A stretch of 18,020 nt of DNA, from the NCBI GenBank assembly GCA_031255975.1, contig JAIRRM010000155.1:1-18020 (forward strand). The letters are read 5' to 3'. The notes under the pieces are model-generated. The model was not told where the DNA came from, did no database searches, and was given only the letters and a program-made list of their open reading frames with translations. Both the position numbers and the translations under genes were made by a program. Positions 1,261-18,020 of this stretch are shown here, piece by piece (position 1 is the stretch's first letter; each line of letters opens with the position of its first letter). This stretch comes from Propionibacteriaceae bacterium. GTDB taxonomy: Bacteria; Actinomycetota; Actinomycetes; Propionibacteriales; Propionibacteriaceae.

Positions 1261-1261
1261 T
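1127..1261 (-). CDS. Possible 44-aa small protein at the end of the operon
   Basis: An ATG (1261-1259) overlaps the TGA of the transglutaminase-like gene as TGATG and is preceded by GGAGG nine bases upstream, a strong ribosome-binding site. The product starts MAGGSKLSVGLKRL, is 44 residues long, and matches nothing I recognise. A one-base frame change inside it would lead into a hydrophobic stretch (GLLTALLIVVAHIH), so it may be the broken start of a small membrane protein rather than an intact gene. The good start signal is what is seen; whether the product is real is uncertain. Confidence 0.3.
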   Translation of the reverse strand: MAGGSKLSVGLKRLGVGAVDGAVDRGGAYTQVTEEVPISGALRQ

Positions 1262-3583: not shown

Positions 3584-4858
3584 TCACACCCCCGCCCCGA
3601 TCAATCCGTGTTGCAGATCATCCAGGCCCGTGATGGTGAGCACCGTGAAACCAGCCACCTCCCGTAGCCCCAGTTCCGCATCGGAATCGACGATGACGAC
3701 CACCATACGTACCGCCGCGGGCACACTGGCCCGACAGTGCATCAGATCATCGAAACTGATGTTACGACCGGTGGCCACCGCGACGACGGAAACATCTGGT
3801 GCCAGCGTGCTGATCCGCACAAAGGCATCACGCAACGGTTTACCATCCAATGCGGCACGGGCAAAAATGTCTAAAGCGATGTACGGATCGGGGCGGAACG
3901 CGGCTAGATTGCCGCAGATGATCGACAGCCCCATCTCATCAGTGATGGTGCGCTGCGCGATGGATGCCCCAACCGAGAGCGCCACCTCGAACTCGCGATC
4001 ACTGTCATAGGCCGCCGAGTCGGTGTCGGTGACCATCACCAAATGTGACCGACGGCTGTCAAGGAATTGGCGCACTAGCAGCTTCGTCTCGCCCGATCTG
4101 GCGCTGGCCTTCGCCGACGATTTCCAATGGATATGCCGTTGGTCATCGCCGGGGACATATTCACGCAACGCGTGAAACGCCATATCGGAGTTGGACACCT
4201 CCTGGGTGGTAAGGCCCTCCAAATCGCGTAACAACCCGGTAGAAACCGACTCCAGCGGTACCGTCACCGGACGCACGATCAACTCCACCGGCTCCGTCCA
4301 GGAGACCTCGCGCCGTATTATTCCAAACGGATCGCCACGCTGAGTACGAACCGGCCCCACCACGATGACACCGCGACGACTGGTGGGCAGTTCCACCGAC
4401 ATCTCGAAACTTCCACCGGGCAGCAAGGTGGGAACCGTGGTACGCGCAGACGACACCCCGGCTGGCAGTTCCACCAGCAGCGAGTTCACCGGCAACCTGG
4501 TGTTGTTTAACAGCTCAAAGCGCGCCCCAGCTTGCCGTCCCACCCGCACCCGACGCGGATGCACCTCAATGGTGACCGCCAACCGCATCCGCCCGATGGT
4601 GAAGATGTACGACAACACCACGGCGGTAAGACAACCGGCTGCGATGATTCCGAACTCCAACCAACCAAACAGGGCGGACAAGAGCATACAGATATGCCCG
4701 ACGAGAATGACGGCACGCCCCAACGGAGTGATCCATGACAGCGGCGTTTTTATCAGAGAGAAGACGGGCGCAAGCCGCTCCCACAGCGGCGACAACCAAG
4801 CGCCGACGGTGGTACGCCACAACGTCCCCACCCTCTCGAACAACACTTGGCTGGTCAC
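3584..4858 (-). CDS. DUF58 domain-containing membrane protein
   Basis: This 424-aa protein has two adjacent TM helices (~48-64 and ~68-86) and then a cytoplasmic part carrying the DUF58 signature FHALREYVPGDDQRHIHWKSS (residues 228-248; the R-x-Y-x-x-G-D and H-W-K cores are clear). DUF58 proteins are partners of MoxR ATPases, with a vWA-like C-terminal part; the exact activity is not established. The start is GTG at 4858, with AGGAG four bases upstream and no better in-frame alternative. It lies 34 bases after the MoxR gene and one base before the transglutaminase-like gene, so the three are surely co-transcribed. Confidence 0.9.
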   Translation of the reverse strand: MTSQVLFERVGTLWRTTVGAWLSPLWERLAPVFSLIKTPLSWITPLGRAVILVGHICMLLSALFGWLEFGIIAAGCLTAVVLSYIFTIGRMRLAVTIEVHPRRVRVGRQAGARFELLNNTRLPVNSLLVELPAGVSSARTTVPTLLPGGSFEMSVELPTSRRGVIVVGPVRTQRGDPFGIIRREVSWTEPVELIVRPVTVPLESVSTGLLRDLEGLTTQEVSNSDMAFHALREYVPGDDQRHIHWKSSAKASARSGETKLLVRQFLDSRRSHLVMVTDTDSAAYDSDREFEVALSVGASIAQRTITDEMGLSIICGNLAAFRPDPYIALDIFARAALDGKPLRDAFVRISTLAPDVSVVAVATGRNISFDDLMHCRASVPAAVRMVVVIVDSDAELGLREVAGFTVLTITGLDDLQHGLIGAGV

Positions 4859-4892: not shown

Positions 4893-5858
4893 TCAGCCAC
4901 GCAACTTCGGTGCCGGTATATCGGCCAACAACCCATTCACAACATCTTCCACCTTGATGGCCTCGAACTGGGCGTTGGCGTTCAATACCAGACGATGCCC
5001 CATCACCGGCAATGCCAATTCACGGATGTCATCCGGGGACACATATTCGCGTCCGTGGGCCACCGCCCAGGTCTTCGCGACCCGCACGTATGCCAGCGCG
5101 CCACGCATAGACACACCCAAACGTACGTAGGGGTGGGCGCGCGAGGACGTGGCGAGCTGGTTCACATAGTCAAGAATCGCCGGATCGACGTAGGTCAGGT
5201 TGGCGAACTCGCTCATCTGCAACACCGCCTGCCCCGAGATCACCGCCGACACCGATTTGGCGCGATCCCGGTTGGCCGCCTCATTCAGCAGTTCCACGGC
5301 CACGGCGTGATCCGGATAGCCGACGGCGACTTTCATCAGGAAACGGTCGAGTTGCGCCTCCGGGAGCCTGTACGTACCAGACTGTTCTATCGGGTTCTGA
5401 GTGGCCACCACCATGAACGGGCGGCCCACGTCATGGCGTACCCCGTCCACGGTGACGGTGTTCTCCTCCATCACCTCCAGCAGCGCCGACTGGGTTTTCG
5501 GCGAGGCCCGGTTCACCTCGTCCGCTAACACAATGGTGGCGAACACCGGCCCCTCATGGAACACGAACGATTGGGTGCGCTGGTCATACACACTCACCCC
5601 GGTGAGGTCAGACGGCAACAAGTCGGGCGTGAACTGTATCCGTGAGTGCGTGCCCTGCACGGTGTTGGCGATCGCCTTGGCGAGCACCGTCTTACCGGTG
5701 CCGGGGTTGTCCTCCAGCAACAGGTGACCCTCCGACAGCAGGCAGGTCAACGCCAACGCGATGATGTTGTCTTTGCCGCGAATAGCGATGGCGACGTTCG
5801 ACACCATGCGGTCGAAGTTGCTCTTGAACCAACCGGCTTGTTCTGCGGTTATCGGCAT
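4893..5858 (-). CDS. MoxR-family AAA+ ATPase
   Basis: This 321-aa soluble ATPase has Walker A NPGTGKT (51-57), Walker B IVLADEVNR (109-117), sensor-1 ATQNP (152-156), an LDRF arginine motif (170-173) and the C-terminal lid domain, all the usual length for MoxR. MoxR proteins are chaperone-like and act with DUF58 or vWA proteins to mature or assemble complexes. The start is ATG 5858, after a weak AAAGAGA purine run. A 51-base gap separates it from the upstream FHA/winged-helix gene; that gap contains a short GC hairpin (CGGCG-TCCC-CGCCG, 5891-5904). All catalytic residues look intact. Confidence 0.95.
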   Translation of the reverse strand: MPITAEQAGWFKSNFDRMVSNVAIAIRGKDNIIALALTCLLSEGHLLLEDNPGTGKTVLAKAIANTVQGTHSRIQFTPDLLPSDLTGVSVYDQRTQSFVFHEGPVFATIVLADEVNRASPKTQSALLEVMEENTVTVDGVRHDVGRPFMVVATQNPIEQSGTYRLPEAQLDRFLMKVAVGYPDHAVAVELLNEAANRDRAKSVSAVISGQAVLQMSEFANLTYVDPAILDYVNQLATSSRAHPYVRLGVSMRGALAYVRVAKTWAVAHGREYVSPDDIRELALPVMGHRLVLNANAQFEAIKVEDVVNGLLADIPAPKLRG

Positions 5859-5909: not shown

Positions 5910-6608
5910 TTATGGCTTAGTTTTGCCCTCGGGCAGGAGGGCGATGTCTTCGATGGTGACTATTCCGGCACCGACCGCGTATTCAACAAGCCGGGCCTTG
6001 CGCGAGACAGCCAATCTAGCGGGGCCGCCATGCAGGCCGCGTACCCCCAGATCGGCCAATTTCTGACACACGTTGTCGAGCTTGCGGTTGAACTTGGTGA
6101 TGGCCCAGCCCAGCCGTGCGGCAGCCTGCGCCGAGGTTGGAATCGCGCCCGCACCCCGATGCATTTTGCGCAACACGTCCTCGGCGAGAGCCACACTCAA
6201 CAGTCTCTGATCGGTGGTGAGATTCACCGAGCCGATGGTGTCGCCATTCACCGTAACGTCTACCAGCCGCACCGACTCGACCAAGGCGGTATCAGGGATG
6301 AACCCCAGTTCGTACGTCATGTCGCCGGCGGTGAAGAAGGCCACCACCTCTCCGAATACCAGCGGCAGCCGATCCCCCGGAGCCAGCCAACCCTGAAGTT
6401 TGCCTTCATTGGCGACAATGCTGGCCGACAGCTTGCTGCCGACGTTCTCCAACCACCACATGCCATCCTCGTTGGTGACACGAAGGAACACCCGGTGCAG
6501 GAACGGGTTCTCATCGTCGAGCACCAGATCGGCGTCCCGGCCAATGGTGAACGGTTGATCCTCCGGAGGATAGAGGATGTCGCCGCAGTAGTCGATGGCA
6601 AGGCTCAT
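5910..6608 (-). CDS. Degenerate FHA-like domain plus winged-helix-like C-terminal domain
   Basis: This is a 232-aa soluble protein. Residues ~1-105 look like an FHA fold: the Gly-Arg pair is present (FTIGRD, 20-25), but the usual S-x-x-H becomes P-F-L-H (35-38) and the late N-G is altered (ENVGS), so phosphothreonine binding may be weak or lost. Residues ~130-220 are helical with a helix-turn-helix look (PTSAQAAARLGWAITKFNRK) and a basic wing-like end, which suggests DNA or protein binding. The ATG at 6608 overlaps the kinase stop as ATGA and has AAGGGG eight bases upstream. A GTG at 6617 is possible but lacks spacing from that site. Being in the operon, it is a good candidate for its local regulator, but that is inference. 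Confidence 0.75.
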   Translation of the reverse strand: MSLAIDYCGDILYPPEDQPFTIGRDADLVLDDENPFLHRVFLRVTNEDGMWWLENVGSKLSASIVANEGKLQGWLAPGDRLPLVFGEVVAFFTAGDMTYELGFIPDTALVESVRLVDVTVNGDTIGSVNLTTDQRLLSVALAEDVLRKMHRGAGAIPTSAQAAARLGWAITKFNRKLDNVCQKLADLGVRGLHGGPARLAVSRKARLVEYAVGAGIVTIEDIALLPEGKTKP

Positions 6609-8137
6609 GTCACACACCCCTTCTCAGACCATTCGTTTTCGAGTCCACCCGCGCCGTTCTTACGTAACACCATCACCTGAATGCAGTACTCCGTGCCGAC
6701 GGGTGCGATCTCTACGCTCTTGCGCTCGCTGGTGCGTGTTTCGGTGCCATCTGGCCGCAGTATCACCGACACATCACCTTCGCACATTCGCTCATAAACC
6801 CAGGAGAACGTGACCATGTCTGCGTCGCGCTGCGGTTCCTCAAACCGCACCCGGCCCGGCGGACGGTCACAGATAGTCGGTGGCGGCACACCAGTGGACT
6901 GGGGGGAATCGGAATCTGCGACACGACCGATGCCGTTCACCAACACCACCGTCACAATGGCGATGACGGCCAGCGCCGCCACGATGCCGATGACAAGCCC
7001 CGCGCGACCAGCTCTAGGTGTGGCCGCCGCGCCCTGCTCCTCGCCAGTTACCTTGCCCCGGTTCATTGACGCCGTGTCTGCCGACATCGCGGCCACCGGT
7101 GTCGCGCCATCCTGGTGTACCAGCGGCAACTGCTCGTCGCGGCGTATCGTCGCATCGAGGGGAGTTGACCGAACTGGGGCGGCGGGAATCGGCGTTTGCG
7201 CCGTCACCACCTGCGTCTCACCCTTACGGCGGGTACGGTCGTCTGCCGGGGCGGGCGGAGAAGCCGCCGAGGCGCTCAACTCCTCCACCATGAACCTGGT
7301 GGCGGGTAGCCGTAGCTCGGATTCGATGGCAAGCAACGCCCGGCCCAGATCGAAGGCGCTCTTGGGGCGGCGGCGGGGCTCCTTGGACAACACCAACCGT
7401 AACAGCCGCTCCAACGAGGCGGGCACATCGCCCCTCCCCGTCATCGGTGCCTCCCAGTCGCGAATACGTTGCATCATCGCCGAGGAGCGGTTATCGCCGC
7501 CAGGCACCTCGAACGGCGAACGCCCCACCAACAGGTGCCACAGCGTCGCCCCCAGTGAATAAACGTCGGAGCGTTCGTCCGCTTTAGTCCAAGAGAACAC
7601 CACCTCGGGCGGTGCCCAGGGGATCGAAAGCAACGACTCGTCGTCATCGCCGGCGTCAAGGCGGGTGGCGATGCCAAAATCGGTGAGCACCGGGTCGCCG
7701 TAACGATCGGTGAGCACGTTCGCGGGCTTGATGTCGCGGTGGATCAGCCCGGCGCGGTGTGCCGTCTCAACCGCGGCGGACAACTCCACCCCGGCTTTCA
7801 GCACCTGGCTTACCGACAACGGTGACTTCTTCACCAAAACCGACATAGAGGGGTTGGGAAGATAGGCCATCTGAATGAACGGGCGACCGTCTGTGGTACG
7901 CCCCACCCCGTACACCCGCACAATATGTGGATGCTCCAGCATGGCGGTGGTGTTGGCCTCGTCGAGGAACCGTTGTATCACACGCTGGTTCATCTCGGAG
8001 GTCTTCAACACCTTCACCGCCACCTGACGGTCGGGATGGTGGGAACGGTAAAGATACACATCGGCGAAGCCGCCGGACCCCAGGTCACGGATATAACTGA
8101 ACCCCGGGATGTCAGGTGCGATCCGTACGGTGCTCAT
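6605..8137 (-). CDS. Transmembrane Ser/Thr protein kinase with a small extracytoplasmic domain
   Basis: This 510-aa Hanks-type kinase has a glycine loop GSGGFADVY (20-28), catalytic Lys42, Glu60, HRDIKPAN (133-140), DFG (153-155) and APPE (175-178), so it should be active. Ser168 and Ser171 (DDESLLS) lie in the activation segment. A Pro/Ala-rich juxtamembrane linker (~290-375) leads to one TM helix (~380-401) and an ~105-residue outside domain that looks like a beta-sandwich of fibronectin III type. That domain has four Cys (423, 452, 485, 508), enough for two disulfides; there are no PASTA repeats. The ATG at 8137 overlaps the upstream FHA gene (ATGA). The kinase, the PP2C phosphatase and FHA proteins in one operon make a closed phospho-signalling set. 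Likely targets are the FHA partners and the secretion machinery. Confidence 0.93.
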   Translation of the reverse strand: MSTVRIAPDIPGFSYIRDLGSGGFADVYLYRSHHPDRQVAVKVLKTSEMNQRVIQRFLDEANTTAMLEHPHIVRVYGVGRTTDGRPFIQMAYLPNPSMSVLVKKSPLSVSQVLKAGVELSAAVETAHRAGLIHRDIKPANVLTDRYGDPVLTDFGIATRLDAGDDDESLLSIPWAPPEVVFSWTKADERSDVYSLGATLWHLLVGRSPFEVPGGDNRSSAMMQRIRDWEAPMTGRGDVPASLERLLRLVLSKEPRRRPKSAFDLGRALLAIESELRLPATRFMVEELSASAASPPAPADDRTRRKGETQVVTAQTPIPAAPVRSTPLDATIRRDEQLPLVHQDGATPVAAMSADTASMNRGKVTGEEQGAAATPRAGRAGLVIGIVAALAVIAIVTVVLVNGIGRVADSDSPQSTGVPPPTICDRPPGRVRFEEPQRDADMVTFSWVYERMCEGDVSVILRPDGTETRTSERKSVEIAPVGTEYCIQVMVLRKNGAGGLENEWSEKGCVT

Positions 8138-10056
8138 GGCTCCACCTCAAAGATGAAACTGAACACGTCGGCAAGCACTACCTTGGTGCCCGGTTCAATG
8201 ACCATCGGCTCGTTGGCCCGCAGCATCACTGGAGGGCGATGGGCGGGGAACACCTCGGTGCCGTTGGTGGAGTCCAAGTCACGCACGGATACGAACCAGT
8301 CTCCCACCGAGACTTCTAGGTGCTGCCCCGATACATCCTTACCGGGGTCGGCGATACGTACCAGGTTTGGGGACTGGTCGTCTGAACCGATGATCGGATG
8401 CGGGTTACGACCGAATATGACGGAACCGTCGCTAAGTTCGATCACCGCGCCATTTTGCAGCCTGAGGTAACCCAGCGGCGGACGCTCAATCTCGAACGGA
8501 TGCTGCGCGGCGATGGAGAGTCCGCACACCCGGCATTTATCGGCATACGGCGGATTGAGATGATGTTTGGAGCATTCGACTGCCAACACCACCGGCGCGC
8601 CAGCGTGGCCCAGCGCCCGCTGCGCCTTACTACGCCGTACGGTGTGCCCCGAATCCTCGACGTCTTCGGGCGGCTCTCCCAACTGCGTCGGTTGTGCTGG
8701 CCGTGCGGCGGCGAAAGGTTCGGGAGGCACGAAACCAGGCACCAAACTCGGCGGAATGGTACGAGAAATAAGCTCCTCAGGACTAGGAGGCGGGAAAACC
8801 CCCGAACCAACAGCAGCCTCAGCCAGCGATGCTGGAGGCACGGCGGCAGGAGGTTCAGTAGCTGGGAAACCCGACACCAAGCCCGGCGGAGCGGTGTGGG
8901 AGATGAGATCGTCAGGATCGGGCGGTGGGAAGAGTTGGAAGGCGGCAGACGGTATCTCTACCGGCACCCCTGCCCGCCGCACCCGGGACACTTCCGGTGG
9001 GTTTACCTGATGGGTAACCGGTTCCGGCGCGGCAGCTGGCGCGGGGACGACAGGTAACACAGGAGATGGCGTGGGAACGGGAGGCGGCACTATGAGTGAA
9101 GGCGGCGGGATGGGAGACGGGAACGACGCCGGAGGCGGAGCGGAACTCACCGGAGTGGACGGGGTACCGTTCCAGTTGAACTCTGCGATGAAACCGGGCG
9201 AAGCATCGGCGGGCGGCAGCACCGCCGGGGACGGCACCACTGGCATGTCTTCGATATAGCTGGTGTGTATCGGATCGCGGGTGAGATCCAAATCAATGGG
9301 CTTAACGGCAGGTTCTTCCGCCACGCTCGCCGGCGACCGCAACTCTGCCGCGGGTTCCATCAGCGGTTCAGGCTCTGGGGCGAAGTCGACCTCTGGTTCC
9401 GGCAGCCGTACGGTGCGGTCGAAAAGCTCCCAGAAAACGGGGCTGTCTTCCGATTGCTCGGCGGGCACATCCGGGGGCATTGGCTCAGCCGATGGTGTGA
9501 ACGGCGTAGCGTCGCTGTCACCGTCCGCGGTATCACTGCCCGCAGTAGTCGGCGGCGAGACAGGGCTGTCTGCGGCATCACCATCGGGAGCCGACGCAAC
9601 GACGGGGTTATTCTCAAGGGTCGGCACGGCGGTGCCACCACCGTCGTGAGCCACGGTTGATACCGGAACAACCCCCGTTTGTAGCGGAACCATACGCGGC
9701 CCAGCCACGGCGGCGACATCGGTGAACAACACCACCGAAGCATCGACCGGCACCGTATGTTCGGAAACCAGTCCGGTGCCGCTCAGTAGCGTGTCGGCAT
9801 CCACCATTGCTTTGACGCCGCCACGTAACAGCAGCCGAACAGCGTCGGTACCGACCTCCATAATGCCAAAACCTGGCAGCCGCGACAGCCCGTGGCTGGC
9901 AAGCGAATCAAAGGCAGCCGCCGCATTCGGAGCAGTCCGCAACGCGCCGAGAAGCGGTACCACCAACTCATCGGTGAGCGCGGTCTCGATAACGACACAA
10001 ACCGGCCAATCGGCCACCGCGACCAGATCGCCCGGAGCGTACCTGAACTCCCCCAT
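8134..10056 (-). CDS. Zinc-ribbon and FHA-domain protein with a long proline-rich linker
   Basis: This 640-aa protein has an ordered N-terminal domain (~1-125, not recognised), a long low-complexity Pro/Ala/Glu-rich region (~130-475), a small metal-binding knuckle and a C-terminal FHA domain. The knuckle has Cys495, His498 or His499, and CRVC (508-511). The FHA domain (~527-640) has GRNP (549-552), S-G-Q-H (576-579) and STNG (596-599), all key phosphothreonine-binding positions. The linker holds two copies of a ~34-residue repeat (FPPP...LIS.T.PP.LV.GF; residues 376-409 and 421-454). The start is ATG 10056, eight bases after the phosphatase stop with GGAGGAG upstream; the 3' end overlaps the kinase start. 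It probably reads kinase output and scaffolds the locus proteins. Confidence 0.85.
   Translation of the reverse strand: MGEFRYAPGDLVAVADWPVCVVIETALTDELVVPLLGALRTAPNAAAAFDSLASHGLSRLPGFGIMEVGTDAVRLLLRGGVKAMVDADTLLSGTGLVSEHTVPVDASVVLFTDVAAVAGPRMVPLQTGVVPVSTVAHDGGGTAVPTLENNPVVASAPDGDAADSPVSPPTTAGSDTADGDSDATPFTPSAEPMPPDVPAEQSEDSPVFWELFDRTVRLPEPEVDFAPEPEPLMEPAAELRSPASVAEEPAVKPIDLDLTRDPIHTSYIEDMPVVPSPAVLPPADASPGFIAEFNWNGTPSTPVSSAPPPASFPSPIPPPSLIVPPPVPTPSPVLPVVPAPAAAPEPVTHQVNPPEVSRVRRAGVPVEIPSAAFQLFPPPDPDDLISHTAPPGLVSGFPATEPPAAVPPASLAEAAVGSGVFPPPSPEELISRTIPPSLVPGFVPPEPFAAARPAQPTQLGEPPEDVEDSGHTVRRSKAQRALGHAGAPVVLAVECSKHHLNPPYADKCRVCGLSIAAQHPFEIERPPLGYLRLQNGAVIELSDGSVIFGRNPHPIIGSDDQSPNLVRIADPGKDVSGQHLEVSVGDWFVSVRDLDSTNGTEVFPAHRPPVMLRANEPMVIEPGTKVVLADVFSFIFEVEP
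8695..8931 (-). repeat. Two-copy in-frame repeat in the proline-rich linker
   Basis: Copies at 8830-8931 and 8695-8796 encode related ~34-residue units: FPPPDPDDLISHTAPPGLV and FPPPSPEELISRTIPPSLV, each followed by a GF..-EP.AA..PA tail. The similarity holds at DNA and protein level, which indicates a tandem duplication inside the FHA gene. Confidence 0.7.
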
Positions 10057-10064
10057 GATGCCCG

Positions 10065-10868
10065 CTACTCCTCCACTCTGGTCTCGCCTTCAACCGGACG
10101 TGGTTGAGTGTCCTCATAGATACCCGCCAGCAGATCACTTTGCTCAGCATCACCTACCCACACGGCCACCACCGTGACGTTATCGGCCCCGCCCGCCGCC
10201 AAGGCCGCATGGACAAGGCGCTGTGCCACTTCAGCCGGGGCAGCCGGGCATTCACCGACGATGGCGGCGATCTCGTCGTCACCCACCTCGGAGGAAAGCC
10301 CATCAGAACACAGCACGAACGCGTCACCGGCCAGCTTCGGCACCAACATGGTGTCCGCGCGAGGGGGTACACGGCTACCAAGCGAGCGCGTCAACACCGT
10401 ACGGGACGGATGGGTACGGGCTTCGTCTTCGCTCACCAATCCGGCGGCCAGCAGTGATTGCACCTCATTGTGATCCGTGGTGAGCCGCTGCAATGCCCCG
10501 TCATGATGCCGATAAACCCGTGAATCGCCGATATTGAACACCAGCCAGTGTTCTACATCTCCGATAAACACAGTCGCCAACCCGGCTACGGTAGACCCGA
10601 GCCCTCGTGCCTCTGGGTTCTCGTCGCCATAACACAACAGCTTGGTGTTGACATCTGCCAACAGTTTGATGATGTCACTCTTGTGCAGCCGCTCCCCGCT
10701 GTCACACTCCCGCAGCATATCGACGACAACATGGCTGGCCACCTCACCGGCAGCCTGTCCGCCCATACCGTCTGCCACCGCGATGATTTGCTGCCCGACG
10801 AAGAAGTCGTCTTCGTTATGAGAGCGCACCAACCCCACATCTGAGGTACCAGAGCATTCCACCCTCAT
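10065..10868 (-). CDS. PP2C-type Ser/Thr protein phosphatase
   Basis: This 267-aa cytoplasmic phosphatase has the PP2C motifs in order: SDVGLVRSHNED (9-20), VADGMGGQAAGE (31-42), GSTVAGL (91-97), GDSRVYR (114-120), LCSDGLS (186-192) and GGADNVTVV (226-234). The metal-ligand Asp/Glu positions are therefore intact. There is no TM helix. It would reverse the phosphorylation made by the kinase encoded two genes downstream. The ATG at 10868 has only a weak AAAGAGA upstream and overlaps the stop of a possible 62-codon ORF (TGATG). It is the first gene after the one sizeable gap in the train and may have its own promoter. Confidence 0.95.
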   Translation of the reverse strand: MRVECSGTSDVGLVRSHNEDDFFVGQQIIAVADGMGGQAAGEVASHVVVDMLRECDSGERLHKSDIIKLLADVNTKLLCYGDENPEARGLGSTVAGLATVFIGDVEHWLVFNIGDSRVYRHHDGALQRLTTDHNEVQSLLAAGLVSEDEARTHPSRTVLTRSLGSRVPPRADTMLVPKLAGDAFVLCSDGLSSEVGDDEIAAIVGECPAAPAEVAQRLVHAALAAGGADNVTVVAVWVGDAEQSDLLAGIYEDTQPRPVEGETRVEE

Positions 10869-11057
10869 CAGGACAGATCTCTTTCGTCTTGTGTCGCCTC
10901 ATGCCGGACGACCTGGGCCGTGCCAGGCACCGACAGTGAAACTTGCAGCCTTTGCAAGTCCTCTCTATCGTAGGGCACCCGAAGCCCTTGTGGCATGGGG
11001 AGCACTCCCCTTGGGCGTCGCCGACACCTATTCTTTCTCCACACTTTCGGTGACATG
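10869..11057 (-). other. 189-base gap between the ATPase and phosphatase genes: small ORF(s) or internal promoter
   Basis: Three readings compete. (a) A 62-codon ORF runs from ATG 11056, one base after the ATPase stop, to a TGA that overlaps the phosphatase ATG, so it fits the gap exactly; its Arg-rich product (MSPKVWRKNRC...) is unlike known families. (b) A TTG at 11061, overlapping the ATPase stop, opens an 81-codon frame ending at 10816 with an unusually Cys-rich product (CSPC, CKGC, CRC motifs, zinc-ribbon-like), but it runs 53 bases into the phosphatase gene. (c) Non-coding: the gap holds the palindromic 17-mer also found near 16775, a TACGAT -10-like box and a 7-bp hairpin. I cannot decide between them from the sequence alone. 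Confidence 0.5.
10967..11010 (-). promoter_or_regulatory. Possible internal promoter/operator ahead of the phosphatase
   Basis: On the - strand GGGGAGTGCTCCCC (11010-10997; 6-bp arms around TG) is followed by ATG and then, 24 bases after the palindrome, by TACGAT (10972-10967), which fits a -10 box. No good -35 hexamer is present, so an activator bound at the palindrome would be needed. The same 17 bases occur at 16775-16791. Next downstream is the inverted repeat ACTTGCA-aaggc-TGCAAGT (10959-10941). Confidence 0.4.
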
Positions 11058-14000
11058 TCAATCCGGTAATGGTAGTTGGACGATGTAGGGCTTCCCACCT
11101 TCCACGTACACGCCGCGGCCAACCGGGAAATCGGCGCGCTTCATACGCGGTAGCTGCACCCGGAACAGGAAATCGCCGTCTTCGGAATCCGGTTGCAGCA
11201 CGACGCCTCTCCGGCTGCTACGTACCTCGCTGACGAGTTGCCAGGCCGCGCTCCAAGAACTCGTCTCACCCTCACCGATGATGAAATGTCCGTTGCGTTT
11301 GGCCAACTTGACCAGATCCAGCAGATCCTGCTCCACCGGGGTTCCCAGCAGCTCCTGTAATCCCTCGACCAATAACACCAGTCCGGGGCGAGCGTCGGCC
11401 AACACTTCCAGTTTTGGCTTCAGGAACGCGGCCAGCGACTTCATGTCGTCGATGTTGATGGCCAGGTCCGACCATGCGGCCTCATTGCGTACCATTGAGC
11501 GCCCCGGGCCGAAGAAATACATCGGCATTTCGGGATCCCAGCGCCTGAGGCTCTGTGCCAACCACCGCAACGCCGTGGTACGTCCAGAACCCGGCATTCC
11601 CGCGACCATGAACGCCCCGTGCGGATCGAAGCCGATAGGTTCCAGGCTACGACTCTCGATGCCGAGCACCGGTAGACCGTTCATCTCGTGCGGCACTTCG
11701 TCGGAGGTGACCACGGTAGTCAATCGCCGGACAGGAGTGGCGTCCGGCATCCCCGCGGCGCGCAGCCGCTCAGCCAAGGTATTGACGACCAACGCCTGAT
11801 CCGCAGGGTTGGGCGAGCCACCAGGTACGGCAATCTGCACCTCGTTGGTGGTACCGGAGAAAACCCCGCGCCCGGCGGGTGATTCGGCATTCAGCGAATC
11901 CTTCGGTATGTCCAGGGCACCGTAGGCGTTATCCTCTGCCTGACGCAGGATGAGGCGACGCTGAATGTTGGACGCTTGTGAGTTGGGGATGGCATTTGGC
12001 TGCTCGCAACCCAACACCACATGGATGCCCAACGCTCTGCCCTCATCCAACAGCCGACTCAGCATTGTCGCCGGGCTGACCCCGTACACCAACTCAAAGG
12101 CGGAGCGGAACGCCGCATAGCCGTCGATGAGCAGGAAAACCCGCTGTTCGGCGATACCCGTCGTCTTGCGGTAATCGGCGATGGAACCGGCGTTCACCGC
12201 AGCGAACCGTGAGGCGCGCTCTTCAAGCAACGCGATCAGATGACGGAACACCCGGTCGACACGCTCGGTGTCGGCCACGCCGATGATCGCCCCCACGTTG
12301 GGCAGCGGCGTCAACATGGTGAGGCCCGCCGTGCCACAGTCGATGCCGTACACGATGGCCGGGTCGGTGTCATACATGGCGCTCGACGCGACGGCGATGG
12401 TACGCAGTACAGCCGACTTGCCGGAACCACTGGTGCCGTAGACCGCGAGATGGCCCGCGTCCGGATCGTAGTAGGAGATGCTTTGCGCCTGCCGTTGTGG
12501 CAGATCGACGACGCCAATGGGTTTGCCGACGCCACTCGCATCGGGAAACAGGCTGCGCAATCTGCGTAGATCGAACGCGGTGCTCAGTTCGGGTAACCAC
12601 GGTTTACGCGGTTCCGGTATTCCGGCCAGCCCCGCCGCCGCACTAATTGTAGTGATGGCTCGGGCGATGTCCGTCGGCTCCGATTCGTCGTCGGCCTTGT
12701 TGCGTCGGCTCACTTTCGGGATGTCCCAGGCATTGCCGCTGCCGAAAACCATGGTTTCCACTTCCACTGACGCCGGTTCCGGCTCATTGGAAGTATGGCC
12801 GCCCGCGTAGCCGGTCTGGAACAGCGTGATCCGCCCCGGCCCGGTGCGCACCGCAGCTCGCCCCGGCACCCGCGGATCGAACTCGGCGGCAAGCTTCAGG
12901 CCGATGACGTCTTGCGAATCCGCCTCGTCCGCCATGCGCAGCGCCACCCGGAGGTTGGTGTTTGCGCGCAGATTGTCTTTGATGACACCAGCCGGGCGCT
13001 GGGTGGCCAGAATCAGGTGCAACCCAAGAGAGCGCCCCCGCTGGGCCACGTCCACAACCCCATCTACGAACTCCGGCACCTCATGGACGAGTGCGGCAAA
13101 CTCGTCAACCACAATGACGAGCGACGGCGGGCACTCCGGGTCGCCGGTACGCTCCAGTGCCACCAAATCCTTTGCCTTCTTGGCGTTGAGTAGTTGTTCC
13201 CGGTACCACAATTCGGCGCGCAATGACGTGAGCGCGCGGCGCACCAGATGCGGCGACAGGTCGGTAACCAATCCGACGGTGTGCGGCAGTTTGACGCAAT
13301 CCGCGAACGCCGCCCCACCTTTGTAATCGACCAGCAGGAATGTCACCCGACTGGGGCTGTGCGCCGCCGCCATGCCGAGAATCCATGATTGTAGAAACTC
13401 TGATTTTCCCGCGCCTGTGGTGCCACCGACCAGCGCATGCGGCCCCTGGGTGCGTAGATCCAACAGAAATCCGCCGTGGGCACCCTGCCCTACCAGACCT
13501 CGCAGCGTGGGGCTGACCTTGGGGTAACGTCCGTCGGCACCGGGTAGTGAGCCATCCTCCCGCCAACGGTTGAGCGTGACCGTCGGATCAAGCGCGAGGT
13601 TCGGCTCTGCGAGCGCCAGATACGACACGGCCCTGGGGATGTCCGATTGATCGATCACCGGGGCACCAGCGTCCAGCACCGGAGCCAGACGCTTCGCCAG
13701 GCTGAGGGCGGTATCCTCGGGAATGCCCTCCACTTCATCGACACGTAGCACGATGCCCTCGTCCGGGAAGCCGGCGGTGACGGCACCACTGGCCTGGTCG
13801 TGTGTCAGGTAAGTACGGCACTGGGACGGCAATCGCTGCTCTGAGCCAGCAACCCAAATCAGATGCACCCCCACTTCGGGGCCACGTTCCGCCAATGCCA
13901 CCAGACGGCCCCGCTCTATCGGGGCATCGTCCTCCACCAACAGCACCAGCGCCGGAATATGCAGCGCCTTTCGGTCACGCTGCCCCAACCGCGACACCAT

Positions 14001-15461
14001 CACCTCTTCGAGCGCCGACACCAACATGGGAACCGCGGGCCCCGCGGCCAGATGCGACCCCCCTATCGGGGAGTGGGCCGAACCGACATGGGGCAACCAC
14101 ATCAGCCACTCCCATGTTTTGCTGGACTGTGTGGAGGCGATGGCGGCCAACACCAGTTCCGCCGGCGAATGCAGGCAGGCAAGCTGGGTGATGATACCCC
14201 GAGCTACGGGGTGGAGCCACTGAGCCGTACCGGCGATACCGAGGTTGCCGCATTCGCGTAGTTTCGCCGCCACCGGCACGCCGCTCACCACCGCTGCCCC
14301 CTGGGCCAACTCGGATAGTTCACGCCATTCGGTGCTACGACTTTCATCTCGGGCAGGCAACTCCACCACGTTGCGCGACGGAGCTTGCCCCAGCCCCAAC
14401 CGTATATCCAAGAAATCCGGATCGGCGGGACGCCGTTGCCACAGGTCGGGTTGCAAATCCGATGCGGCCGACAGCAGCATATCCAATGGGGGTAACTCGG
14501 CGCGTCTGGTCGCTACCTCTGCCGTCATCGCCTCGTCAAGGTCGGTCTTTAGCGCGTCAAGCTCGGTGCTGTATGTCTCGGCAAGCGCTTTTAGCGCCCT
14601 CCGATCAGTGACCACTTTGTCAAACCAGGTACCGAGCGCGATCAACGGGCTTAAAGCCACAAAGATGATGCTCATCATGTTACGGGTAACGGCAAACATC
14701 ACTCCGCCCATGATGAGCGGAGCCACCATCGCCACCAACGGAAACTTATTGTTCTTCGGAGGTGCCGGGGGTTTGGGGGCGGCCAGTTTCCGTCCGGTGT
14801 ACTTCACCCGCACCTTCGGGGAGCGATTGAACTCGATGGCACCGTTGCTGACAGATGCCCCAGCCGTGGCCTGGATATGGCGCTCGACACGAATCTGGTT
14901 GTCACCGATCATCACGGTGTCTTGCCGACCCAACGTGGCGTTGGGCACCACATGGCCATCAAGCACCACGCCATTGGCCGAGTTGGTGTCCCAGATCTCG
15001 ATAGCATCACCGACCGAGATCCGAGCATGTCTGCGCGACACCATGGGATCGGAGAACTGAATGTCGCATTCAGGATCGCGACCTATGGTGTTGGGCCCGA
15101 AGCGCAACTCAAATGATTTGCCCGCGTCCGGCCCCACCACAACCCGTAGGGTGGCAGGGCTAGTCGTGGTGGAGGATACATCCGCCACCTGACCGCTCGG
15201 ATCGCGGAACAGCGGATAAAGCTGTACGTTTTGCCCAGATCGCAACCCGGATTCGGCCAGGGCCGCCCGCCAGGGGAGAATCGTGGGTGCCGCCACGGTG
15301 GCGTCTGACACGCTGAGTGTCCAGAGCGAGTCGGTGGCGTGCCCTACCAACCCCGCCTGGATCGCGGCCCCCACTTCACCGATGGTCGCGGTACTTTCAG
15401 CAGTGACCGCGATCGGGGTCACCTGCTGCTCCGGGGATACGAGGGACAGCTTGAGTTTCAT
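11058..15461 (-). CDS. Type VII secretion EccC/EssC-like FtsK-SpoIIIE ATPase with N-terminal ubiquitin-like and FHA domains
   Basis: This 1467-aa motor has five parts. Residues ~1-86 have the length and strand pattern of a ubiquitin-like domain (LxLV...TIGEVGAAI...L.ESGL.SGQNVQLYPL). An FHA domain (~104-193) has IGRDPE (126-131), SRRH (142-145) and N160/N163. Two TM helices follow at ~241-278, then a cytoplasmic part and three FtsK-type ATPase domains. ATPase 1 has GTTGAGKS (680-687) and VVDEF (784-788) and should be active. ATPase 2 has GTSGSGKS (1009-1016), but its Walker B lacks the Glu (LLIDGY). ATPase 3 has GSGRT with Arg1294 in place of Lys and no Walker B Asp. The FHA-TM-TM-ATPase order and the FNRSPKVRV segment resemble Firmicutes EssC more than mycobacterial EccC. 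The ATG overlaps the preceding gene (ATGA). It would drive export of the WXG100 proteins encoded divergently. Confidence 0.92.
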   Translation of the reverse strand: MKLKLSLVSPEQQVTPIAVTAESTATIGEVGAAIQAGLVGHATDSLWTLSVSDATVAAPTILPWRAALAESGLRSGQNVQLYPLFRDPSGQVADVSSTTTSPATLRVVVGPDAGKSFELRFGPNTIGRDPECDIQFSDPMVSRRHARISVGDAIEIWDTNSANGVVLDGHVVPNATLGRQDTVMIGDNQIRVERHIQATAGASVSNGAIEFNRSPKVRVKYTGRKLAAPKPPAPPKNNKFPLVAMVAPLIMGGVMFAVTRNMMSIIFVALSPLIALGTWFDKVVTDRRALKALAETYSTELDALKTDLDEAMTAEVATRRAELPPLDMLLSAASDLQPDLWQRRPADPDFLDIRLGLGQAPSRNVVELPARDESRSTEWRELSELAQGAAVVSGVPVAAKLRECGNLGIAGTAQWLHPVARGIITQLACLHSPAELVLAAIASTQSSKTWEWLMWLPHVGSAHSPIGGSHLAAGPAVPMLVSALEEVMVSRLGQRDRKALHIPALVLLVEDDAPIERGRLVALAERGPEVGVHLIWVAGSEQRLPSQCRTYLTHDQASGAVTAGFPDEGIVLRVDEVEGIPEDTALSLAKRLAPVLDAGAPVIDQSDIPRAVSYLALAEPNLALDPTVTLNRWREDGSLPGADGRYPKVSPTLRGLVGQGAHGGFLLDLRTQGPHALVGGTTGAGKSEFLQSWILGMAAAHSPSRVTFLLVDYKGGAAFADCVKLPHTVGLVTDLSPHLVRRALTSLRAELWYREQLLNAKKAKDLVALERTGDPECPPSLVIVVDEFAALVHEVPEFVDGVVDVAQRGRSLGLHLILATQRPAGVIKDNLRANTNLRVALRMADEADSQDVIGLKLAAEFDPRVPGRAAVRTGPGRITLFQTGYAGGHTSNEPEPASVEVETMVFGSGNAWDIPKVSRRNKADDESEPTDIARAITTISAAAGLAGIPEPRKPWLPELSTAFDLRRLRSLFPDASGVGKPIGVVDLPQRQAQSISYYDPDAGHLAVYGTSGSGKSAVLRTIAVASSAMYDTDPAIVYGIDCGTAGLTMLTPLPNVGAIIGVADTERVDRVFRHLIALLEERASRFAAVNAGSIADYRKTTGIAEQRVFLLIDGYAAFRSAFELVYGVSPATMLSRLLDEGRALGIHVVLGCEQPNAIPNSQASNIQRRLILRQAEDNAYGALDIPKDSLNAESPAGRGVFSGTTNEVQIAVPGGSPNPADQALVVNTLAERLRAAGMPDATPVRRLTTVVTSDEVPHEMNGLPVLGIESRSLEPIGFDPHGAFMVAGMPGSGRTTALRWLAQSLRRWDPEMPMYFFGPGRSMVRNEAAWSDLAINIDDMKSLAAFLKPKLEVLADARPGLVLLVEGLQELLGTPVEQDLLDLVKLAKRNGHFIIGEGETSSWSAAWQLVSEVRSSRRGVVLQPDSEDGDFLFRVQLPRMKRADFPVGRGVYVEGGKPYIVQLPLPD

Positions 15462-16153
15462 GCGTCTTCCTCGTCGGCCCCGTCGTCTAATGCTGGGTCA
15501 ACTGGCGTTTGGTCGGCTGGTACTTCGGTGGGAATCCCTTTGTAAAGCATGGTGATAGCGTCAAACATCGGCACCCAGGATTCCTTCAGCATCACCATCG
15601 GCGTGGTGAAAACGCTCTGCACCATGCCGAACCCGGGAACATGCTGCAAGTAGGTCACCTGAAGTTGCTTGATGGGTTTTTCTTCCAGCCCCGGATACGT
15701 GCTTTGTATCTCGTCCACCTTGCGAATTGCCGGGTGCGGGTGGCCTTTAACCACCTCGTATCCCTCCCCGGGCGACTTGGCGATGAACTGCGTCAACGCC
15801 TTGACCGGATCAACCGCGCCACCGGTGAGTTTTATCATGGTTCTATAGTCAACACACAACAGTGACGCCGGAACAGGCAACCCGCCGACCTGCATCAGCG
15901 ACATGGCCATCACCAGACCCCCCACAGCGGCGGCGTCGTCGCATTGCCGTTTCAGTTGCTGCAGCATTTCGCGGCGTAATTCCAACCCTGTTCCGGTCGT
16001 ACCGAATTGCCTGTCGACCAGGCTCCTAATCTCCTTCGCCCGCTTTTTTGCGTCGATCAACGAAATCGGAACCCATCCGTTCGGCAAGATCAGCCGGAGG
16101 GAATCAGTCACCCGCACCCGCCTGCCACTGGGCCGTGCTTCGCCCATATTCAT
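15458..16153 (-). CDS. Conserved alpha/beta protein next to the secretion ATPase (Mog1/PsbP-like fold suspected)
   Basis: This 231-aa soluble protein has no signal peptide and an acidic C-terminus (PALDDGADEEDA). It begins with a beta strand ending in LPNGWVPISL, then helices rich in R/E/Q, a hydrophobic segment (AAAVGGLVMAMSLMQVGGL), strands, and a closing block FTTPMVMLKESWVPMFDAIT. That order (LP-GW ... F-TP ... F-x-x-I) is what I would expect of a Mog1/PsbP-like fold, but this is a pattern judgement. I chose ATG 16153, which overlaps the upstream stop as ATGA after GGAGGTGA; ATG 16147 is equally possible, and the longer frame to 16258 is not needed. It shares a general layout with its upstream neighbour. 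Its ATGA junction with the ATPase suggests a chaperone or adaptor role. Confidence 0.65.
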   Translation of the reverse strand: MNMGEARPSGRRVRVTDSLRLILPNGWVPISLIDAKKRAKEIRSLVDRQFGTTGTGLELRREMLQQLKRQCDDAAAVGGLVMAMSLMQVGGLPVPASLLCVDYRTMIKLTGGAVDPVKALTQFIAKSPGEGYEVVKGHPHPAIRKVDEIQSTYPGLEEKPIKQLQVTYLQHVPGFGMVQSVFTTPMVMLKESWVPMFDAITMLYKGIPTEVPADQTPVDPALDDGADEEDA

Positions 16154-16722
16154 TTCACCTCCATTCCCGCGATAATCTGCACTACCTGTTCTTCGAACGT
16201 GTCTTTGAGCAACAGATTGACACAACCCGCATCTAGCCATACATGGTCTGTAGACCATTCGGGGAAGCAGTAGGCCCTAACGCGCAGATACACCGTCCCG
16301 GAACCGTCTAAGCAACTCTCCATTGCCCTAAGGCCGGGCTGGCCAGCGATCTCACAGCGCGTGACAGATGAGGCAATAATATTTGGATCGTTCGTTTCAC
16401 CTCGCGCTATACGGGCAAGTTCTCGCTCCCGCTGTTCCAGGGTTACCCTGCCGTTGTTAGCCACCATCCAGGCGAAAAGAGCCACGTAACCGATAGCCGT
16501 AGCGTTAGCGTCTCCAGGTGCCCAGATGCCCACGGCGGTCGGACGGCTGGGGGCGAATCTGGCATCCATCGCCACGATAGATGCCAACACACTATCCAAC
16601 ACGGCCTCGTGACTACCAAAGCGTTCCCGTGCTAACTCCAGCGCCGCCGTAGTGTCCCCGGCGGGCCAGATGAGCCACTCATCCGGTACGCCCCAGTTTA
16701 TCCATTCAATGCCTTTTGCCAT
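16150..16722 (-). CDS. Hypothetical alpha/beta protein, first gene of the operon
   Basis: This 190-aa soluble protein of unknown function begins MAKGIEWINWGVPDEWLIWP, followed by helices, a hydrophobic stretch (AIGYVALFAWMVANNG), a charged helix (EQRERELARIARGE), then beta-rich sequence and a final amphipathic helix (DTFEEQVVQIIAGMEV). The layout (Pro-x-x-Trp near the start, hydrophobic middle, closing helix) is like that of the next gene, so the two may be distant paralogues. I chose ATG 16722: TACAGT (16734-16729) ends six bases before it, consistent with a leaderless mRNA, and no Shine-Dalgarno is seen. The frame extends upstream to a TTG at 16767, which would run into the operator-like region. 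Confidence 0.6.
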   Translation of the reverse strand: MAKGIEWINWGVPDEWLIWPAGDTTAALELARERFGSHEAVLDSVLASIVAMDARFAPSRPTAVGIWAPGDANATAIGYVALFAWMVANNGRVTLEQRERELARIARGETNDPNIIASSVTRCEIAGQPGLRAMESCLDGSGTVYLRVRAYCFPEWSTDHVWLDAGCVNLLLKDTFEEQVVQIIAGMEVK

Positions 16723-16728
16723 GCCATC

Positions 16729-16734
16729 ACTGTA
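16729..16734 (-). promoter_or_regulatory. Possible -10 box of the long - strand operon
   Basis: TACAGT on the - strand lies six bases before the ATG at 16722, the spacing expected for a leaderless transcript. No clear -35 hexamer is visible. The palindrome at 16775-16788 is about 41 bases upstream. Confidence 0.3.
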
Positions 16735-16774
16735 GCGACCATCCGCCAATACAGCCACGCGTGACAACAGAAAC

Positions 16775-16791
16775 GGGGAGTGCTCCCCATG
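16775..16791 (+). promoter_or_regulatory. Palindromic operator-like element in the divergent intergenic region
   Basis: GGGGAGTGCTCCCCATG contains 6-bp inverted arms around a central TG (16775-16788). It lies between the divergent ATGs at 16722 and 16893 and is identical over 17 bases to the element ahead of the phosphatase gene (- strand, 11010-10994). A CTTG-atg-CAAG repeat follows at 16817-16827. It probably controls one or both divergent transcripts; the binding protein is unknown. Confidence 0.5.
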
Positions 16792-16892
16792 GCGTCATAC
16801 CAGATGCTGAGCCAGACTTGATGCAAGCTGAATACCAAGATCGGCCAACGGATAAATCCGAACCGACGCAATACAGAAGGGAAACCAGAACC

Positions 16893-17192
16893 ATGGCAAA
16901 CATCCATGTCGGGTACGAGGAACTCCGTACCGCAGCTACCCACCTCCGCACCAACAAGGACAACATCCAGGGCGAACTCGACGCGCTGAAGTCCTACATT
17001 CAGAATCTGGTGGCCAGTGGCTTCGTCACTGACCAGGCTTCGAAGCAGTTCGAATCCACCTACACCCAGTTCACCGAAGGTGCCCGGCAAACCATCGAAG
17101 CCCTGCAAGGGCTCGGCCAGTATCTCGATCAGGCCGCCGCCGCGTTCAGCGATCTCGATACGCAGCTCAGCAGTGCTATCGCGGGCCGGTAG
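16893..17192 (+). CDS. WXG100-family type VII secretion protein (motif variant)
   Basis: This 99-aa, all-helical protein has the family length: helix 1 ~8-40, a turn at 41-48, helix 2 ~49-95. The turn reads SGFVTDQAS (42-50), so Phe-Val-Thr (44-46) stands where Trp-x-Gly would be. The following helix (ASKQFESTYTQFTEGARQTI) and LQGLGQYLDQAAAAF are typical of actinobacterial WXG100 proteins, some of which share the FVTD variant. No signal peptide is present, as expected for ESX-type substrates that form helical-hairpin dimers. The ATG at 16893 fits the family's MA-x-I-x-V start and has AGAAGG about 12 bases upstream. It is divergent from the ATPase operon and leads the putative substrate operon. 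Confidence 0.9.
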   Translation: MANIHVGYEELRTAATHLRTNKDNIQGELDALKSYIQNLVASGFVTDQASKQFESTYTQFTEGARQTIEALQGLGQYLDQAAAAFSDLDTQLSSAIAGR

Positions 17193-17269: not shown

Positions 17270-17593
17270 ATGGACGTCCCAATTGATGAATTGGTTCGTT
17301 GTGCCGCGTCGCTGAATGTCATATCTGAGGCTCTCGGAAACGCGAACCAAAATGCAGCAGCGAGCGCTAGCAGTTGTGGGCACTCAAGACTGTCCGGAGT
17401 GCTGCTCCAATTCGGGAATAACTGGAGTGCGCACCGCAGATACCTACTAGACACGATGAGCGGACTCGGAGAGGCTTGTTGCGCCGTTGCCGAACAGTTC
17501 CAAGGCCTTGACCAAGCTCTGAAAGATGCGCTGCTGGACGCCCCCGCGTCGCCTCAGCCCGGAGTTTCTACCGGAATGCGGATCGCTGTCTGA
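17270..17593 (+). CDS. Small helical protein, probable WXG100-like partner or chaperone
   Basis: This 107-aa protein is predicted mostly helical, with no signal peptide or TM. Two helices (~4-30 and ~53-92) flank a turn with Trp52 (FGNNWSAHR), reminiscent of WXG100 geometry, and the tail is Pro/Ser-rich. It has three Cys in the C36 and C70/C71 region. The start is ATG 17270, seven bases after AAGGA. It lies between the WXG100 gene and a large putative type VII substrate, where partner or chaperone genes usually sit. I do not recognise a named family; the WXG-like reading is inference. Confidence 0.65.
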   Translation: MDVPIDELVRCAASLNVISEALGNANQNAAASASSCGHSRLSGVLLQFGNNWSAHRRYLLDTMSGLGEACCAVAEQFQGLDQALKDALLDAPASPQPGVSTGMRIAV

Positions 17594-17622: not shown

Positions 17623-18020
17623 ATGTCGAGACCGACCTATGAACAATGGCGCCGAGTATGGCCGTCACTCTCAGGTGACCCCACACCCGGCGACCCACAA
17701 AGCTTCAAGACAGTAGCCGACCACTACCAACAGGTCGCTGAAGCCATCACACAAGCCACAACCGACCTGAATACGCTCGTCTCCGAAAGCAGTACCAACG
17801 CGATGGCCGCAGTGTCTCAGACTGCGGCCGATTTGAGTACACCCGCCGGCGTCAACACGGCAGTTAACGAGCCATCGATAGCCGTAAAAGAACTCCACGA
17901 GCAGATGAAGAAGGTTCTCACCCAGCTACAAAAAACCCAGGGGCGTTACCAAGACGCCGCGCAGGCGATGCAAACGTTCCACCAAAAGCTAGAGGAGAAT
18001 CAGCAGCTAGCGGACAAAAC
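17623..18020 (+). CDS. Putative type VII-secreted effector, N-terminal part only (runs off window)
   Basis: The first 132 codons are visible. The start MSRPTYEQWRRVWPSLSGDP leads to DPTPGDP (19-25), followed by long amphipathic helices ending in KLEENQQLADK. This arrangement (DPTPGDP, ~80 residues of helix, then a helix ending in '...A-QxLADKA') is the N-terminal secretion module I know from actinobacterial proteins annotated as putative T7SS-secreted, often polymorphic or RHS-type toxins. The frame is open to the window end, so the effector domain is unseen. The start is ATG 17623, preceded by a GGAAAGAAG purine run; an ATG at 17618 is in another frame. Its place after the WXG100 and small helical genes supports a substrate role. 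Confidence 0.7.
   Translation, partial: MSRPTYEQWRRVWPSLSGDPTPGDPQSFKTVADHYQQVAEAITQATTDLNTLVSESSTNAMAAVSQTAADLSTPAGVNTAVNEPSIAVKELHEQMKKVLTQLQKTQGRYQDAAQAMQTFHQKLEENQQLADK

Follow-up and report, generated by a model that had tools for sequence, protein, structure and literature searches.

To our knowledge, little is understood of how ESX-like (type VII) secretion systems are switched on outside the mycobacteria. Activators of the TraR/LuxR type work from boxes of 18-20 bp that adjoin the -35 region of a promoter, and these tra and lux boxes are palindromic. Closer to the secretion system itself is EspM, a mycobacterial regulator of ESX-1. In the available text of its two descriptions, the C-terminal half of EspM is the part tested for DNA binding, and EspM binds the whiB6-espM intergenic region and represses whiB6 (PMC7002343, PMC11005418). 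Here, the subject is a locus on contig JAIRRM010000155.1 of a Propionibacteriaceae bacterium, and a palindrome that stands in it twice, once before a gene for a WXG100 protein and once before a gene for a PP2C-type protein phosphatase. The window, which is the whole stretch of DNA analysed, has 18,020 nucleotides and is the entire contig C58 of genome G000. The palindrome is probably the site from which a protein of the same locus, having an FHA domain and a LuxR-type helix-turn-helix (HTH) domain, activates a type VII secretion regulon, comprising here its own gene run and scattered genes for WXG100-type proteins.

A sequence-only reading of this DNA had reported an identical 17-bp palindrome at two promoters. 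Indeed, GGGGAGTGCTCCCCATG occurs exactly at 16775-16791 on the plus strand and at 11010-10994 on the minus strand. The latter copy lies between the stop of eccC (11058) and the start of the PP2C gene (10868); the former lies 5' of the WXG100 gene (16893). With three mismatches allowed, the 17-mer matches the window three times (the two exact copies, and one palindrome read on the other strand), and at most once in any of 200 shuffles. With two mismatches allowed, the shorter form GGGGAGNNCTCCCC matches twice, both times exactly, against a shuffle mean of 1.47, with 84 of the 200 shuffles reaching two. At such a chance level, the case depends on exactness and on conservation. In the 1.61-Mb assembly, exact GGGGAGNNCTCCCC is found in three places, the two window copies and G000:C154:8268, and the backward pattern in none. 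The third copy (L003:1200-1514, G000:C154, minus strand) stands before a WXG100-like frame that stops after about 43 codons; this gene looks broken or truncated.

Conservation was examined in 80 loci around relatives of the EccC protein, the best 80 of 576 confirmed. The palindrome occurs exactly 25 times in these loci, and none of seven control palindromes matched to it in composition occurs at all. A scan that presupposed no motif then covered all half-sites of four to six bases, with gaps of 0-14, in the 160 bp after eccC. GGGGA-N4-TCCCC ranked first among the five-base half-sites, in 30 of 76 loci (random regions gave at most 6), and the scan extended the core to ATGGG-N8-CCCAT, in 27 of 76. 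The operator is thus taken to be ATGGGGA-N4-TCCCCAT. The palindrome of the earlier reading is real, but its unit is 18 bp rather than 17. As far as comparison of sequences can tell, both window palindromes are copies of this 18-bp putative operator, which across several families of actinobacteria stands before genes of type VII (ESX-like) secretion. With one mismatch allowed in the 18-bp pattern, a fourth site is counted in G000.

The usual gene order, where the flank shows it, is MoxR, DUF58, transglutaminase, PP2C, FHA, kinase, FHA-HTH, EccC, operator, WXG100. Read against this order, the window is a rearranged version, in which the PP2C gene has an operator copy of its own. Genome G001, of the same genus, also has the palindrome upstream of PP2C: one copy lies between the WXG100 and PP2C genes, a second lies nearer PP2C, and others precede WXG100-type proteins.

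Promoter geometry was read from an alignment of 83 non-redundant sites upstream of WXG100-like open reading frames (ORFs), 69 from EccC-anchored loci and 14 from stretches fetched as site-bearing. Counting from the operator start, TANNNT begins at offset 40 in 48 sites and at offset 41 in 22, a total of 70 of 83; in the EccC-anchored subset, 60 of 69 have it at one of these offsets. On the opposite side of the operator TANNNT appears at most once at any offset, and not at all at 39-42, and in 200 shuffles it never exceeds five at any offset. In these 70 sites the operator centre lies 31.5-32.5 bp upstream of the -10 element. This fixed offset means that the operator covers the -35 region, with its centre some 43 bp (about -43/-44) before the expected start. 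Measured from such predicted starts, and for a candidate binder, this is the position near -42 to -45 that palindromic operators of LuxR/GerE/NarL-type regulators occupy. The gene side of the operator carries ATCG in 39 of 83 sites, the other side in 8 of 83. In the window, the elements are these:

10995..11012 (core 10997-11010), minus strand: predicted operator 1, AAGGGGAGTGCTCCCCAT read towards the PP2C gene; 13 of the 14 specified bases of ATGGGGA-N4-TCCCCAT
10967..10972, minus strand: -10 hexamer TACGAT, exactly 40 bp from the start of operator 1
10942..10958, minus strand: CTTG..GCAAG repeat, just past the -10 and presumably within the 5' leader; not conserved
16773..16790, plus strand: predicted operator 2, ACGGGGAGTGCTCCCCAT, upstream of the WXG100 gene; 13 of the 14 specified bases
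16813..16818, plus strand: weak -10-like CAGACT at offset 40 from operator 2, keeping A2 and T6 of TANNNT
16817..16827, plus strand: CTTG..GCAAG repeat, overlapping the -10-like hexamer; not conserved

On its side facing eccC, operator 2 has TATTGG at offset 39, an ambiguous sign of divergent use. The CTTG..GCAAG repeats had been noted behind the palindromes at spacings that differ by one helical turn. They are present, 28 and 38 bases past the 14-bp form, but neither the repeat nor its phasing is conserved: CTTG-N0-12-CAAG follows the operators of relatives at 1 of 83 sites, and the third operator copy of the genome has no such repeat behind it by eye. The repeat was accordingly rejected as a second conserved element.

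The candidate reader of the operator is the FHA-HTH protein encoded at 5910-6617. FHA folds top the search with its whole model, where the four matches at E 0.001 or better are all FHA domains; these belong to its N-terminal part, whose Pfam match is below cut-off. In 16 aligned rows, the FHA residues G23, R24, H38 and N55 are invariant, and the position of the Ser of SxxH holds Pro, Ala or Gly (NPFLHR). Canonical phosphothreonine-binding FHA domains carry GR, SxxH and NG-type residues. The model of the C-terminal domain has a GerE-type HTH fold, resembling LuxR/GerE/NarL-type regulators in all 50 of the matches listed. Pfam gives the window's C-terminal domain no match at E 0.5, from the GerE-type family or any other, and HTH_8 (Fis type) matches weakly in 7 of 21 members. 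With a fold match and no family-model match, the domain is likened to LuxR/GerE/NarL by fold and is not assigned as a member. Searches of the PDB gave no sequence relative at E 0.1 for the whole protein; the hits to the C-terminal domain, all at E 0.17 or worse, were unconvincing.

The operator and this protein tend to be found together. A profile of the FHA-HTH protein was searched in the genomes behind 79 of the 80 EccC loci (L096 excluded), and found it in 67 and not in 12. Where the flank after eccC is readable, an operator with at least 12 of the 14 bases is found there in 47 of 66 regulator-carrying loci versus none of 11 without the regulator (p 8e-6); two Curtobacterium records are among these 11. 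In a class-wide set of 296 genomes, with one mismatch allowed per site, 27 genomes have the protein. At least two sites are present in 19 of the 27, against 9 of the 269 others (p 3e-17); at least one is present in 21 of 27 and in 53 of 269 (p 2e-9). Twelve of the 14 genera having the protein include a genome with at least two sites. In the window's own genus, G000, G001 and G004 have both protein and sites, and G003, G005 and G006 have neither; G002, which is 76% complete, has sites, with the FHA-HTH gene undetected.

Counting copies in whole genomes required some care with the pattern. Occurrences of GGGGAGNNCTCCCC in high-GC genomes are partly chance (14 sites versus 6 for a control in G063, the genome of L076), and genome counts were for this reason made with ATGGGGA-N4-TCCCCAT, whose control pattern is absent from 16 regulator-carrying genomes. 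These 16 genomes, hand-picked mostly because their loci had a site, all have operators, from 2 to 14 each; five genomes without the regulator have 0, 1, 0, 0 and 0. Thus, a search for many scattered copies, or for failure of conservation, found few copies per genome and broad conservation. ATGGG-N8-CCCAT occurs 0-5 times per genome in 22 genomes, mostly Nocardioidaceae, whether or not the regulator is present, and so is informative by position only. One Nocardioidaceae genome lacking the regulator has two palindromes of the ATGGGACA..TGTCCCAT type 31 bp apart (G225:C6:15857-15905), perhaps another operator.

The genes behind the operator were examined next to those that lack it, an operator being counted at 12 or more of 14 bases or as ATGGG-N8-CCCAT. 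In the EccC-anchored loci of regulator-carrying genomes, 69 of 114 WXG100-like ORFs have one within 300 bp upstream, and many of the remainder appear to lie further along in the same gene run. Where the genome lacks the regulator, 0 of 18 have one (Fisher p 4e-7). The single WXG100-like ORF of L096, whose genome is outside the regulator search, has none; among control ORFs of at least 200 amino acids, 64 of 3268 do. A genome-wide check used 66 sites from nine genomes, a subset of the existing sites. In 39 of them a -10 lies at offset 39-42 on one side, a placement found at 79 of 11,400 random positions, and about 22 of the 39 precede WXG100-like genes, as judged from translations read by eye. 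The sequence-only reading had proposed that a shared operator joins the secreted substrates to the phospho-signalling half of the locus. Its recurrence before WXG100 genes in several families, its place before PP2C in two genomes of the genus, its fixed distance to the -10 and its tracking of a putative DNA-binding protein of the locus all support this.

Some operators lie in other settings. At L181 (G001:C153) and L188 (G004:C316), one separates MoxR from a large membrane protein encoded divergently, with no TANNNT at the usual offset; the MoxR genes of G001 and G004 may belong to the regulon too. At L189 and L192, outside the secretion loci analysed, proteins that by eye resemble short-repeat proteins of the DUF2510 type lie beside operator copies. 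Two operators about 20 bp apart occur at L083:16758-16795, and L074 has one full and one imperfect copy around 14480-14511, suggesting cooperative binding. L040 (NZ_JADHDY010000023.1, Sporosarcina beigongshangi) is an Arthrobacter-like ESX locus under a Bacillota name, probably through contamination or a mislabelled assembly.

How would such a system work? A dimer of the FHA-HTH protein would bind ATGGGGA-N4-TCCCCAT through its LuxR/GerE/NarL-fold domain and, sitting at the -35 region, would contact RNA polymerase and turn transcription on. A site on the -35 region at fixed spacing makes activation by such contact the most likely mode, and the poor -35 that accompanies the fixed spacing also favours activation. 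The targets would be WXG100-type genes, both those in the locus and others scattered over the genome, and, here, the PP2C-FHA-kinase-FHA-HTH-MoxR-DUF58-transglutaminase run. Because the regulator gene lies inside the run behind operator 1, the protein would control itself. It is a speculation, prompted by the neighbouring genes, that the kinase and phosphatase of the locus set the activity of the regulator through its FHA domain, which keeps GR and H, not the Ser of SxxH. The genes of the window are as follows:

2-769, at the contig start: 3' part of a periplasmic-binding-type protein (PF13407), apparently unrelated to the locus
1261..3582, minus strand: Transglutaminase-core protein (Transglut_core 2.9e-10)
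3584..4858, minus strand: DUF58 protein (DUF58 4.5e-7)
4893..5858, minus strand: MoxR-type AAA ATPase in the same-strand gene run (AAA_3 2.5e-61)
5910..6617, minus strand: FHA protein with a LuxR/GerE/NarL-fold HTH, proposed operator reader (from fold, alignment and co-occurrence)
6605..8137, minus strand: Ser/Thr protein kinase (Pkinase 1.8e-41), with a likely transmembrane segment read from the sequence
8134..10056, minus strand: long protein with a C-terminal FHA domain (FHA 5.4e-5)
10065..10868, minus strand: PP2C-type protein phosphatase (PP2C_2 1.8e-14), first gene behind operator 1
11058..15461, minus strand: EccC-like ATPase of 1467 amino acids with an N-terminal FHA domain (FtsK_SpoIIIE 3.8e-51, FHA 9.4e-14)
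15458..16767, minus strand: two ORFs upstream of eccC that match no Pfam family; the start of the upstream ORF is probably downstream of 16767
16893..17192, plus strand: WXG100 protein (PF06013 E 5.7e-19; TIGR03930 above cut-off), first gene behind operator 2 and a probable type VII substrate
17270-17593 and 17623-18018 (open at the contig end), plus strand: two ORFs behind the WXG100 gene, of no clear family

With an EccC-type ATPase and a WXG100 substrate, both recognised from their sequences, the window is taken to be an ESX-like locus. EccB, EccD and EccE were not named in Pfam scans of the main window ORFs, which were not searches aimed at them.

The same operator and the same protein might serve repression, with the protein blocking RNA polymerase at the -35 region until a phospho-signal or assembly of the secretion system relieves it. 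The site does overlap the -35 region, and a protein built in a similar way, EspM, is described in the available text of PMC7002343 as repressing whiB6. Repression would, of course, not need a -10 spacing confined to two offsets in 70 of 83 cases. Further, the -35 is at best TCGAC-like, as expected of a promoter that depends on an activator, although position alone is indecisive. Repression by the FHA-HTH protein is, on balance, unlikely.

Less probable still is a different reader, either some other DNA-binding protein or an alternative sigma factor, with the FHA-HTH gene merely co-inherited. That gene does sit in a conserved locus, alongside the kinase, PP2C and the two ORFs before eccC, and G043 and G159 have sites without it. 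However, all 11 readable EccC loci from genomes without the gene lack the site. In four genera with regulator-carrying genomes, a regulator-less member has no sites (G280, G263, G236 and G297), G043 being the exception in a fifth. An 18-bp palindrome is also unlike the -35 element of a sigma factor. Further evidence against another reader comes from the presumed recognition helix. In this helix FNRKLDNVC is invariant in 21 relatives. Among 43 sequences compared, of which 42 could be read, RFTRK occurs only in L063 and L077, the loci with a GGGA-type site, and AQTRF, preceded by TAV or SAV, only in L064 and L086, whose sites are ATGGGTC..AACCCAT and ATGGGTT..AACCCAT. The Nocardioidaceae genome G252, which has the FHA-HTH protein, carries an L064-type site at a distance of 4.4 kb beyond the gene for it. 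Thus, two operator variants appear to coincide with changes in the recognition helix. G408, the genome of L063, has two full-length FHA-HTH matches, which could mean two related regulons.

That the element is an RNA hairpin, a terminator, a dispersed repeat with no role in initiation or a coincidence is very improbable: its core is a perfect inverted repeat and no -10 stands at the usual place in 27 of the 66 copies examined genome-wide, but it lies upstream of the -10 and so probably outside the transcript, the window has no Rfam match at the gathering threshold, and it is held to 2-14 copies per genome with controls at zero.

Several observations weigh against activation through the FHA-HTH protein. 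Within the window, the -10 of operator 2 is weak. Just 39 of the 66 genome-wide sites have a placed -10, and some copies are therefore not promoters of this kind or are chance. No site of 12/14 lies beside eccC in 19 of the 66 regulator-carrying loci: seven of these are Arthrobacter, Paenarthrobacter or Pseudarthrobacter, four (L063, L064, L077, L086) carry variants and two (L039, L057) weaker ones, three (L070, L082, L083) have the site elsewhere in the locus, and three (L025, L026, L079) have none. Class-wide, 6 of the 27 regulator-carrying genomes lack a site even with one mismatch, and among the 269 regulator-less ones, 53 have one site or more and 9 of them at least two. Operator-like sites are present in G043 (4 sites) and G159 (5 sites) despite the lack of the FHA-HTH protein; G043 has a match to the FHA part alone (9e-4). 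Related genomes are, of course, not independent in any of these counts. As to the helix, the variants GGGTA, GGGCA and GGTGA accompany the usual one, and the match of helix to operator therefore depends on four loci, two of which (L063 and L077) are close relatives. With the C-terminal domain, Foldseek matched nothing below 0.001, and another DNA-binding protein of the locus might be the reader, the two ORFs at 15458-16767 being without family.

A defined operator and a candidate reader make activation by the FHA-HTH protein directly testable, and suggest a phospho-signalled activator of the LuxR type. The operator would also serve as a DNA tag for secreted substrates that protein similarity misses. 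A broader proposition, whose chances appear to us evenly balanced, is that one ancient FHA-LuxR-type activator and its 18-bp box form the type VII master switch in a large part of the Actinomycetes, through which a dedicated kinase and phosphatase are coupled with the secretion machine, with the MoxR-DUF58-transglutaminase genes and with WXG100-type substrates encoded elsewhere. If so, box and -10 together would predict new substrates from DNA alone.

A limited literature search for a palindromic operator at actinobacterial type VII or WXG100 genes found none, which is not a claim of absence from print. The nearest described regulator found is EspM, likened to the window's protein by architecture and setting alone. 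In the available text, both have an N-terminal FHA and a C-terminal HTH (PMC7002343), and EspM is encoded beside an ESX locus and regulates ESX-associated genes (PMC7002343, PMC11005418). EspM differs in its fragments, which run up to residue 363, and in having two HTH parts that flank a helical bundle. Neither main text contains "palindrom" or "inverted repeat", so no such operator is described there (PMC7002343, PMC11005418). In the Mycobacterium genome behind L056, the FHA-HTH profile matches nothing at E 1e-8. The mycobacterial EmbR resembles the window's protein in being a transcription factor with an FHA domain, and 2ff4 and 2fez are in the whole-model fold list; the match corresponds to the FHA part. 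In EmbR, the FHA is at the C-terminus, and the DNA-binding domain is a different one. The locus as a whole shares the EccC-type FtsK/SpoIIIE ATPase and the WXG100 proteins with actinobacterial ESX/type VII loci, but its EccC has an FHA domain, and it has its own kinase, PP2C, MoxR, DUF58 and transglutaminase genes. With activators of the LuxR/TraR/GerE type, finally, the window's protein shares the DNA-binding fold and, as its putative site, an 18-bp palindrome centred at about -43, adjoining the -35; it differs from them in its input domain, which is an FHA rather than an autoinducer-binding or receiver domain.
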